Shown here piece by piece: positions 5,025 to 8,032 of a stretch of DNA of 64,000 nucleotides (the first letter of the stretch is position 1; every line of letters begins with the position of its first letter). The stretch is taken from NCBI RefSeq assembly GCF_024753565.1, contig NZ_JANTPT010000001.1, positions 1,383,969 through 1,447,968 of the forward strand, read 5' to 3'. A program made the translations under genes and the position numbers. The DNA is from Mechercharimyces sp. CAU 1602 (GTDB lineage Bacteria; Bacillota; Bacilli; Thermoactinomycetales; JANTPT01). The notes beneath the pieces were generated by a model, which was not told the DNA's origin, did not search any database, and saw nothing but the letters and a program-made list of their open reading frames with translations.

Positions 5025-5336
5025 TTACAAGGATTGCTTCATCCACATTCCCTGAATAGGGGTAACAATCCGTTCTGCAACCATCAAATCAATAATCCGG
5101 GATCCATATTCCTTTCGATAGGGGGAGTTTTCTAATTTTTCTCTCTCTGCGGGTGTAAAAAGACGTTCGCTCACACTTTTAGAAAATTGAAGCAATCCCA
5201 TTGTGCCTCTAGTATTTTTCACCTCACGAGCTTCCTCCATCAATTGTCTCAACGTCTGTTCTGTCACCGCTTGTCGACCGACTGTTTGATTAATGATCTG
5301 TACCAGCTCTTTATATAACTGATCTGCATTCCCCAT
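5025..5336 (-). CDS. Small protein of unknown function
   Basis: A 103-residue soluble protein rich in charged residues, predicted mostly helical, with no signal peptide or membrane segment. I chose the ATG at 5336 because AGGAGGAG sits five bases before it; an in-frame codon 30 bases upstream has no such site. I do not recognise a family. It does not resemble YlbE, YlbF or YlbG, which occupy this place beside csfG in Bacillus. It ends 17 bases from the csfG terminator, so the two are convergent. Confidence 0.7.
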   Translation of the reverse strand: MGNADQLYKELVQIINQTVGRQAVTEQTLRQLMEEAREVKNTRGTMGLLQFSKSVSERLFTPAEREKLENSPYRKEYGSRIIDLMVAERIVTPIQGMWMKQSL

Positions 5337-5505
5337 TCGTACTCCTCCTTTTTCTAAGGTGTTCACCTTATCTCTATGCCCTCATGCTGAAAAAGGGAAC
5401 TGTCTTGTTTAACCTTCTTTCTTTTCCATAAAATCAATGATAAAGAAAAAATTAAAAATAATTATTGAATGAAAGAAGTTTACCTTACTTTTTTCCCTTC
5501 TTCTA

Positions 5506-5534
5506 TTTACAAGGCTGTTTATATTTGGTATATT
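5506..5534 (+). promoter_or_regulatory. Strong sigma-A-type promoter of an unassigned transcript
   Basis: TTTACA (5506-5511) and TATATT (5529-5534) are exactly 17 bases apart, each one or two changes from consensus. Transcription would start near 5541. The only plus-strand elements downstream before the terminator at 5888-5916 are a folded region and a 39-codon frame. Confidence 0.6.
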
Positions 5535-5640
5535 AAGGGTAGGCCATTCCCTTCTTTTTACTCCAACCACAGATACAAATCTCTCTCATTTTTATAAAAT
5601 TATCATTATTCACTCTACGGCTCCGCGTCTTGCACACTTA

Positions 5641-5800
5641 TGACACTTTCGACCAGCCCAGCACGCTCTTCCGATTGACATCCAAGTATGACGGAGTTGG
5701 CCACAAACTAGACCGTCGTCAGCATCTAGTGGAAAGGGGGGGACGAGCGTGGAGAAATGGATACTCCTCTTCTCAACCGTTGTCAGGCTGGTCGAAACAT
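5641..5800 (+). promoter_or_regulatory. Long-range folded leader that pairs with a start codon
   Basis: Two nested, perfect long-distance pairings exist. Bases 5647-5658 (TTTCGACCAGCC) pair with 5786-5797. Bases 5662-5668 (CACGCTC) pair with 5745-5751 (GAGCGTG). The second stem contains the GTG start codon (5749-5751) of the small frame that follows. GACGG (5690-5694) and CCGTC (5713-5717) add an inner stem. Such a fold would hide the start codon, as in mRNAs of type I toxins or translationally gated genes. An equally possible reading is a free-standing structured RNA. No known RNA class was recognised. Confidence 0.5.
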
Positions 5801-5868
5801 TGTCGCACCTTTTTCATCGATATGGTAGGCGCGCCAAACGAAAATGTAGAAAAAAAGCCCCCTTCTAA
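5749..5868 (+). CDS. Possible 39-residue hydrophobic/basic peptide
   Basis: The frame starts with GTG, six bases after a purine-rich AAAGGGGGG ribosome-binding site. The predicted peptide has a hydrophobic segment (residues 4-22, beginning WILLFSTVV, with Arg and Glu inside) and then a tail with about ten Arg/Lys among the last 16 residues. That is the shape of small membrane-active or membrane-bound peptides. The frame is closed by TAA inside a hairpin and followed by a plus-strand terminator. It has its own promoter. No homologue is known to me, and coding is unproven. Confidence 0.4.
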   Translation: MEKWILLFSTVVRLVETLSHLFHRYGRRAKRKCRKKAPF

Positions 5869-5874
5869 GGGAGC
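5850..5874 (-). terminator. Terminator downstream of recG
   Basis: On the minus strand GCTCCCTT pairs with AAGGGGGC (one mismatch) and is followed by a run of seven T. It lies about 110 bases after the recG stop. Confidence 0.75.
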
Positions 5875-5887
5875 ATCATTCGCCACA

Positions 5888-5916
5888 AACCTAGAGGAAA
5901 TCTCTCTAGGTTTTTT
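5888..5916 (+). terminator. Plus-strand intrinsic terminator facing recG
   Basis: AACCTAGAG (5888-5896) and CTCTAGG (5904-5910) form a stem followed by TTTTTT. It closes the transcript that starts near 5541 and shows that a plus-strand gene exists here. Confidence 0.75.
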
Positions 5917-5983
5917 CCGTCACATCACCTATCCTATGCACCTTCGGAACATTTAAAACTTGTCTACACAAATTTCGACTTGT

Positions 5984-8032
5984 CTAGTCAACATTCTCAC
6001 GTTTTGCCTCTTCCGCTTGCAACCACTGATGCAGGTCGGCCAGATCCGTTCGCTGCCAAAAATCGTCTGCACGCAGCAATGTAGCAGCGTCATTGCGAGC
6101 GGTCTCCAAGATCTGTACATCCTCCATCAAATCAGCCACTTTAAACTCCGGCAGCCCACTTTGTTTAAAGCCGAAAAAATCACCTGGGCCACGCAATTCT
6201 AGATCGCGACGAGCAATTTCAAATCCGTCTGTCGTCTCCGTCATCACTCGCATCCGTTCGACACCGTTTTCTGAGTTAGGATCTGCCACCAAGATACATG
6301 TAGCGGCTGCGCTCCCACGCCCTACACGTCCACGCAATTGATGCAGCTGGGCTAAACCAAATCTGTTGGCATCATAGATCACCATCACTGTGGCATTCGG
6401 AACATTTACCCCTACCTCCACGACCGTGGTAGAGACGAGCACCTGCACATCGTTTGCAGCATATGCACGCATCACTTCATCTTTTTCCCGGGCTGCCATC
6501 TTACCGTGGAGAAGACCAATCTGATATTGGGAAAGTACTACTTTGAGCTGTTCATAAATTTCGTGTGCATTGGCAAGATCCACTTTTTCCGATTCCTCGA
6601 TCAAAGGACAGATCACATAAGCTTGATGTCCAGTACTGCACGCTTGATCAATAAACGAGATGACCTTCTCCCACGTACTCGGTTTGACCCAGTGAGTCTG
6701 AACCGGCTGGCGCCCGCGCGGCATCTCATCGATAACAGAAACATCCATATCACCAAATGCAGTGATAGATAGAGTACGCGGAATAGGGGTAGCCGTCATA
6801 TACAATACATCAGGCGTCTCACCTTTGGCACGTAAGTGCGCACGCTGTTTCACACCGAAGCGATGTTGTTCATCGGTAATTACCAGGCCCAACTTGGCGT
6901 AATCGACTCCTTCCTGAATCAACGCATGCGTTCCAACGACAATATCAGCTAAGCCATCTGCTATGCTGGCAAGTGCCTCCCTCTTCTCACCCACTGTCAT
7001 CCTTCCCGTGAGCGGCACCAGAGTTACACCTAGAGGGGCCAACAGCTCCGTGAGGGATTGTAGGTGTTGTTCCGCTAAAATCTCGGTAGGTACCATCATT
7101 GCTCCCTGGTAACCACTCAGATAAGATGCATACAAAGCAATCGCCGCCACAACGGTTTTACCCGAACCTACATCTCCTTGGACTAGGCGATTCATCGCCC
7201 CCACTGCTCTCATATCGCGTAAGATCTCTTTAACAACACGGTTTTGCGCCCCTGTCAATGGAAACGGTAACCCGTCTATTAGTGGTTTGAGTAACTCATC
7301 GGTAAATTGATGCTCAATTCCAGTTGAAACTGTTCGGTTCTGCTCACGCCAGGCTACCAGTTTCAATTGATACAGAAAAAGTTCCTCATACACCATCCGT
7401 CGTCTACCCAGTTCACCTATATATTGATCCTTAGGAAAGTGTAGACGATACATCGCTTCTGCTCGACCCATTAACTTATAGCGATCCACCAACTCTGTCG
7501 GTAGCACTTCCTTTACACTTCGCCCGTATTGCACAAAAGCTTGCTTAATCCATTTGCGCAGAGAATAGCTTTTGATCGCTCCTGAAACAGAATACACCGG
7601 TTCCAGTTGACCCTGTGCTCGCTTCTGTTCTTCAGCCGTCAGAAACGTTCGTTCCACAGTCAACTGCAACCGGTGCCGATCCCACTTTCCAGAAAGGACG
7701 ATAGACATTCCAGCATGTAGTTTATTTTTTAAATACGGTTGATTAAACCAGACTAACGTTAGCTGAATCCCTTCTACTTCCAGTTTCGCACTGATTCGTG
7801 ATTTCTTCTTACCAAACCAAGCCAAACTGACAGGACCATAGATCGTACCTCTAACGGTAGCGCGCTGATCGTGTTCCAACGTATGGATGGGTTGTATCCG
7901 ATAATCTTCATAGCGATATGGAAAGTACATCATTAGATCCAGCATGGACTTGATCCCCATCTTCGCTAGGTCTTGGGCTCTTGCTTCCCCCACACCCTCT
8001 AACCTTGTAATGGGAACTTGTTCAGGATTCAT
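5984..8032 (-). CDS. recG: ATP-dependent DNA helicase RecG
   Basis: A 682-residue superfamily 2 helicase that remodels stalled forks and Holliday junctions. It has an N-terminal wedge/OB region (about residues 1-160), then Walker A GDVGSGKT, a DEQH Walker B, and motif III TATPIPRTL. Motifs V and VI are also present (VGVNVPNATVMVI, QLRGRVGRG). The ATG start overlaps the stop of sdaAA by 11 bases. In Bacillus recG is followed by fapR-plsX. Here a terminator and a convergent small transcript follow instead. Confidence 0.97.
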   Translation of the reverse strand: MNPEQVPITRLEGVGEARAQDLAKMGIKSMLDLMMYFPYRYEDYRIQPIHTLEHDQRATVRGTIYGPVSLAWFGKKKSRISAKLEVEGIQLTLVWFNQPYLKNKLHAGMSIVLSGKWDRHRLQLTVERTFLTAEEQKRAQGQLEPVYSVSGAIKSYSLRKWIKQAFVQYGRSVKEVLPTELVDRYKLMGRAEAMYRLHFPKDQYIGELGRRRMVYEELFLYQLKLVAWREQNRTVSTGIEHQFTDELLKPLIDGLPFPLTGAQNRVVKEILRDMRAVGAMNRLVQGDVGSGKTVVAAIALYASYLSGYQGAMMVPTEILAEQHLQSLTELLAPLGVTLVPLTGRMTVGEKREALASIADGLADIVVGTHALIQEGVDYAKLGLVITDEQHRFGVKQRAHLRAKGETPDVLYMTATPIPRTLSITAFGDMDVSVIDEMPRGRQPVQTHWVKPSTWEKVISFIDQACSTGHQAYVICPLIEESEKVDLANAHEIYEQLKVVLSQYQIGLLHGKMAAREKDEVMRAYAANDVQVLVSTTVVEVGVNVPNATVMVIYDANRFGLAQLHQLRGRVGRGSAAATCILVADPNSENGVERMRVMTETTDGFEIARRDLELRGPGDFFGFKQSGLPEFKVADLMEDVQILETARNDAATLLRADDFWQRTDLADLHQWLQAEEAKRENVD

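Follow-up and report, generated by a model that had tools for sequence, protein, structure and literature searches.

A 39-codon gene beside recG in Mechercharimyces sp. CAU 1602 is real and conserved, and we propose, at a probability of about 0.58, that the unit around it is a type I toxin-antitoxin-like cassette of a new family, with toxicity and transcripts predicted. In the window (the whole stretch of 64,000 nucleotides that we analysed), the unit comprises a conserved open reading frame (ORF), a sense promoter, one terminator on each strand and a promoter-like element on the minus strand. The sense strand would give a long-leader mRNA for a 39-aa amphipathic peptide with a hydrophobic N-terminal half and a basic tail, whose site of action is expected to be the membrane, and the minus strand would give a short antisense RNA running from just beyond the recG stop to a terminator inside the 3′ end of the ORF. 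Pairing of this RNA with about 67 nt of the mRNA 3′ end could expose the mRNA to RNase III-type decay, as with RatA and SR4, and a hairpin at the start codon may also restrain translation in some members. If true, this is a chromosomal type I toxin-antitoxin-like family that is absent from the protein-family libraries searched and occupies a single conserved site across three of the order's families. The sense unit and its flanks are:

5025..5366, minus strand: unnamed 113-aa gene on the other flank of the cassette; unmatched in Pfam and NCBIfam at E 1
5506..5534, plus strand: sense promoter TTTACA-17-TATATT with TGG ahead of the -10, from the promoter scan and homologues
5541..5916, plus strand: predicted sense mRNA, with a leader of ~208 nt, the 39-codon ORF and the terminator
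5732..5742, plus strand: ribosome-binding site GAAAGGGGGGG; in relatives mostly GAAAGGAGGG or close to it
5749..5868, plus strand: 39-aa peptide gene with GTG start at 5749 and stop TAA at 5866-5868, encoding an amphipathic N-terminal stretch and an Arg/Lys tail
5887..5916, plus strand: sense terminator hairpin and T-run, which would also form the opening hairpin of the predicted antisense RNA
5984..8032, minus strand: recG, convergent neighbour of the peptide gene

A preliminary description of this DNA had reported the near-consensus promoter, the GTG-initiated 39-codon frame with its ribosome-binding site and the plus-strand terminator, and all three held up. The promoter scored 10/12 matches with a TG before the second hexamer, a score common by chance (1 hit found vs 1.1 expected), and was retained within 2 substitutions in 14/14 homologues, our own included. 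The sense transcription start (5541) was inferred by placing it 7 nt past the -10. Likewise, 14/14 homologues start with GTG behind a purine-rich ribosome-binding site, and pairwise dN/dS of the recG-linked ORFs had a median of 0.10 and a maximum of 0.33 (68 usable of 91 pairs), values from which we conclude that the peptide ORF is under purifying selection. The sense terminator hairpin folds with an MFE of -12.5 (z = -4.49; 2/1000 shuffles as low), was not among the calls of our consensus terminator scan, and shows changes on both sides with pairing retained at 6/10 pairs. Plus-terminator scores for two relatives (L012 and L020) are invalid, having been taken at the wrong T-run, and their folded mRNAs are too short; the hairpin is visible for both in the alignments.

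Searching 42 genomes of the order with a peptide profile returned strong matches (E of 1.3e-24 or better; n = 14) in every searched genome of families f1 (1), f3 (10) and f4 (3), and five more genomes of the order matched more weakly (E up to 0.1). At the DNA level, 8 of 61 genomes matched, including our own. A class-wide search of 398 genomes, in which up to 18 candidates per genome were scored, gave at least 22 genomes at E 0.01, namely the 14 carriers, two genomes of family f2 and six weak ones. A degenerate pattern of the start region matched six stretches, in Melghirimyces (two species), Paludifilum, Marininema, Kroppenstedtia and Marinithermofilum; of these, Marininema halotolerans and Kroppenstedtia guangzhouensis belong to the Thermoactinomycetaceae, a family that also includes the other three genera.

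The window peptide had no match at E 1 in Pfam, NCBIfam or PHROGs, the curated toxin families of Pfam and NCBIfam (TxpA/BsrG, Fst and others) included. A set of 18 members gave only weak matches against Pfam and PHROGs, the best being 0.007 to DUF6312 (1 member), with DUF2973 weakly matched by 8/18 (best 0.049). The PDB yielded chance-level matches only (best E 0.39), and the plasmid and phage collections no match to the peptide. In a named genome collection the peptide alignment picked out 42 stretches, and none of these was confirmed. Among the titles and abstract openings listed for literature on type I toxin-antitoxin systems, antisense control, the Thermoactinomycetaceae, SOS and recG, none dealt with this gene, which is weak evidence of novelty given that few subscription journals were covered.

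Across 18 peptides (14 recG-linked, three second copies and one of f2), the best 19-residue hydropathy in the N-terminal half ranged from 1.23 to 1.88 and net charge from +2 to +9. This half is moderately hydropathic, and its 18-residue helical moment was strong, at 0.36-0.53 in every row of both groups; about half of the tail of recG-linked members is Arg and Lys. The 39-aa frame is thus a short hydrophobic/amphipathic peptide ORF with a charged tail, a trait of type I toxins, and its product probably acts at the membrane. Since the helix holds a conserved Arg and Glu and its hydropathy is close to the usual cut-off for transmembrane segments, the peptide may be peripheral.

We then examined the opposite strand, where the preliminary description had suggested looking for an antisense RNA; one is indeed predicted by conserved signals:

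5955..5963, minus strand: ACAAGTTTT block just past the recG stop, extending into the -35 position
5931..5936, minus strand: -10-like hexamer TAGGAT of the predicted antisense RNA, from sequence conservation
5850..5924, minus strand: predicted antisense RNA of ~75 nt, start inferred
5850..5874, minus strand: intrinsic terminator of the predicted antisense RNA inside the ORF 3′ end, with stem 5874-5857 and T-run 5856-5850

At 5857-5874, the consensus scan called two minus-strand terminators that overlap each other (2 found vs 0.5 expected). A minus-strand hairpin followed by a T7-T9 run lies inside or across the ORF 3′ end in 13/14 relatives including the window, and the exception (L018) combines a strong minus hairpin with a T-rich tail, its z being the second lowest of all. 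Values of z for this terminator were negative in 14/14 (mean -1.97), individual folds being only mildly better than shuffles (0 to 218 per 1000 as low) and only some of them standing out alone. Lys codons inside the antisense T-run were AAA in 26/27 cases vs 18/34 elsewhere in the ORFs (Fisher p 1.3e-4, a value that is too good because the sequences are related). Farther upstream on this strand, the -10-like hexamer reads TATAAT in five homologues, TATATT in five, TAGGAT in the window (weak, 4/6 matches) and TAAGAA in three (3/6 matches). The ACAAGTTTT block or a near form of it starts exactly 27 nt ahead of this hexamer in 13/14 (L015 is without the block), and the sequence between the two diverges at fixed spacing. 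No good minus-strand -35 hexamer was found. From the conserved -10-like element, its upstream block and the terminator, we predict an antisense RNA of ~75 nt running from near 5924 to 5850 and covering the mRNA 3′ end.

The closest known systems are txpA/RatA and bsrG/SR4 of Bacillus subtilis, which share with the cassette a short membrane-directed peptide with a charged tail and an opposite-strand antisense RNA over the toxin mRNA 3′ end, the latter predicted here from sequence. According to PMC8464778, RatA overlaps txpA by ca. 120 nt, and SR4 pairs with the 3′ end of bsrG over 123 bp in a complex that is degraded by RNase III; a table in the same source gives 222 nt for RatA and 180 nt for SR4, much longer than the roughly 75 nt predicted here. 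The two systems sit on the skin element and a prophage, whereas the cassette adjoins recG, and searches of the family libraries gave no sequence relation to either. The Fst/Ldr family (par of pAD1) comprises plasmid- and chromosome-encoded type I peptide toxins, as an excerpt of PMC7472228 describes; the window peptide differs in that searches of Pfam and NCBIfam at E 1 left it unmatched.

The main alternative is a regulated small membrane protein that is not a toxin, with the minus-strand terminator serving only to end the recG transcript and any antisense effect a by-product. A minus-strand terminator would be needed anyway, because recG (found in 41/42 genomes of the order) is convergent to the peptide gene in 14/14 carriers and both f2 copies are convergent to another gene, and the weak minus -10 of the window fits such a gene as well. 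Yet past the recG stop the -10-like element and the block ahead of it are conserved at a constant distance while the sequence between them has diverged, and a read-through terminator requires neither of the two; we regard this account as a serious, if rather unlikely, contender. Much less probable is a secreted or cell-lysing antimicrobial. The helical moment seen in all rows and the strongly basic tail would suit an amphipathic cationic helix of that kind, but no transporter or peptide-modifying enzyme appeared by name among the seven neighbourhood proteins scanned (recG, rsmD, YlbJ, a SepM-like protease, a patatin-like protein, the peptide and the unnamed 113-aa gene).

The preliminary description had also entertained an unknown structured RNA. 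The long leader does carry short conserved elements, but a dN/dS of about 0.1 makes a regulatory RNA with an incidental ORF highly improbable, and the start codon and ribosome-binding site are conserved, the leader pairings fold weakly, and Rfam gave no gathering-score match in 5506-5916 (three elsewhere in the window). Its other proposal, a small membrane peptide of the type I toxin kind, is the reading we favour, without the mechanism it attached to it. In that mechanism, the GTG was locked by a 7-bp stem (5662-5668/5745-5751) behind a 12-bp pairing (5647-5658/5786-5797). Both pairings are perfect in the window and nowhere else: 13 relatives keep 3-8/12 pairs of the longer stem and 0-5/7 of the shorter, in a part of the leader that aligns poorly. 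With neither stem conserved, the stem-locked start is unsupported. Within the predicted mRNA (5541-5916), a perfect 12-bp pairing is rare by chance (2/1000 shuffles) and 7-bp pairings are common (at least one in 956/1000 shuffles; 12 in the window vs a mean of 3.9).

Structured, translation-limiting 5′ regions are common, though not universal, in type I toxin mRNAs, and three elements of the cassette leader could contribute to one:

5542..5548, plus strand: GGCCATT at the mRNA 5′ end, mostly GGCCAAC in relatives; as a left arm, it could pair over a long range with 5696-5702
5696..5702, plus strand: GTTGGCC ahead of the ribosome-binding site, mostly GTTGGCT in relatives; right arm of the possible pairing with 5542-5548
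5742..5784, plus strand: possible hairpin over the GTG start, with arms 5742-5756 and 5770-5784

What survives of the idea of a start codon in a hairpin is this last, local structure, conserved at the sequence level and backed by folding in half of the family. It is pairable in 94.6% of alignment cells (10/12 pairs in the window; 8-9/12 in L023 and L024), and its mean pair probability exceeds 0.7 in 7/14, is 0.35 in the window and 0.25 in L015, and is ≤0.04 in five. The 5′-end pairing is pairable in 96.9% of cells (14 sequences; L020, probably misaligned there, keeps 5/7 pairs), with a folding probability of 0.74 in L015 and ≤0.12 in the other 13. Slid-partner controls for the two together gave 33-53% of cells pairable, letter shuffles scored as high as the real pairings, and changes in the 14 sequences were one-sided only, with no double compensatory changes. 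The start codon is mostly paired somehow (unpaired probability ≤0.12 in 10/14), and deleting the first 25 nt barely altered access to the ribosome-binding site (14/14 within 0.11). Given this lukewarm folding support and the small effect of the deletion, we take the 5′-end pairing as a conserved element without an assigned use; as putative regulators, the leader pairings are weakly supported.

Three further candidates were set aside: a pairing of a 5′-end pyrimidine run with the ribosome-binding site (4-9/9 pairs in the alignment, with no support from partition-function folding), a leader CGACC/ORF GGTCG pairing seen by eye in some relatives only, and an operator-like palindrome around the sense -10 whose left half varies, also by eye.

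To place the cassette among its neighbours, we read 19 of 30 recG loci, three from carriers and 16 from families f5 and f6, judging likeness to the 113-aa gene by eye from a shared motif. A gene of this kind opens within ~160 bp of the recG stop in 9/16 f5/f6 loci, with no cassette, and at 561 bp in 1/16, with other neighbours in the remaining 6/16; in the three carriers it opens 587-636 bp from the recG stop. Because the 113-aa-like gene lies close to recG in 9/16 f5/f6 loci, the cassette looks to have been gained here in the ancestor of f1, f3 and f4, and loss at the other recG loci could instead have produced the same arrangement. The weaker related peptides of the two f2 genomes are encoded elsewhere, about 30 kb from their own recG and beside a different convergent gene, presumably ytpB-like. 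One of these copies (L025) retains a long leader behind a promoter similar to that of the recG-linked genes, together with terminators on the minus strand (-11.0) and on the plus strand (CCTAGAG), and in the other (L042) the minus hairpin is weak and away from the T-run. At the end of recG, the minus-strand block TAGACAAG is present twice, 20 nt apart (5959-5986, minus strand), and f4 relatives carry ACAAG twice at about the same distance near the recG end. Elsewhere the window contains a ylbH leader (RF00516; 4893-5010, minus strand) ahead of rsmD, a match to Group II intron D1-D4-3 (RF02001; 41429-41539, minus strand) and an L21 leader (RF00559; 62176-62253, minus strand).

A paralogous second copy accompanies the cassette. 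At E 0.001, a profile of this second group matched 14 of the 42 genomes searched from the order, and these are exactly the recG-linked carriers; it matched no further genome among 398 of the class (up to 18 candidates scored per genome). The second copies are loci L049-L059 and L102-L111, our own being L057/L107 (G000:C4:124493-124615). In 14/14 of them, an NGAAC-N4-GTTCT box overlaps the TATAAT (10 exact to CGAAC-N4-GTTCT, 4 with one mismatch), and in 13/14 a tRNA-Arg(cct) lies within 700 nt downstream. A related box, NGAAC-N4-GTTTG, stands upstream of lexA in 4/4 carrier genomes examined, and boxes of this kind were rare in the other loci examined (4 in 346,361 bases); we therefore read the second-copy box as a LexA-type site, and the second-copy gene looks SOS-controlled from these motifs. 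Farther upstream, TGTCGAA, a motif resembling a Spo0A box, was seen by eye in 13/14 second copies. In the recG-linked genes, the stretch that opens 60 nt ahead of the last base of the -10 and runs to the start codon is without a LexA-type box (≤1 mismatch) in 13/14, the one match lying inside the L022 leader, and has TGTCGAA in 0/14. A rough scan of the second copies for minus-strand terminators found none convincing, with hairpins of at best -7.2 kcal/mol in 10/14 and none in 4.

SOS-controlled type I toxins are known from Escherichia coli, where tisB encodes a small membrane peptide under antisense control. A second example there is dinQ, according to an excerpt of PMC3567139. The cassette family resembles both, as far as that excerpt describes dinQ, in its small membrane peptide, its predicted antisense control and, in the paralogous copies, its LexA-type box; unlike tisB and dinQ, the antisense signals and the box here are on two paralogous genes, not one. 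Tentatively, and with less confidence than in the cassette itself, one peptide family might serve two stress inputs, an antisense-silenced copy at recG and a copy with a LexA-type box (perhaps also responding to Spo0A) at tRNA-Arg, always together, as a two-gene membrane checkpoint linking DNA damage and sporulation. If the type I reading is true, the SOS-like paralog in exactly the same genomes offers a direct test of why cells keep such peptides, as a stress checkpoint or as selfish addiction.

Two loci from other families, L043 (from 1501) and L046 (minus strand), encode peptides of 25-26 aa (MEKWILLLTAV..., MEWILLITAV...) and share the promoter stretch ATGGTATATTA..CCTAGAGGGTGTG. In L043, a hairpin (-13.4) on the minus strand also lies close to a T-run at the stop, and a further tiny membrane-like ORF was seen by eye downstream.
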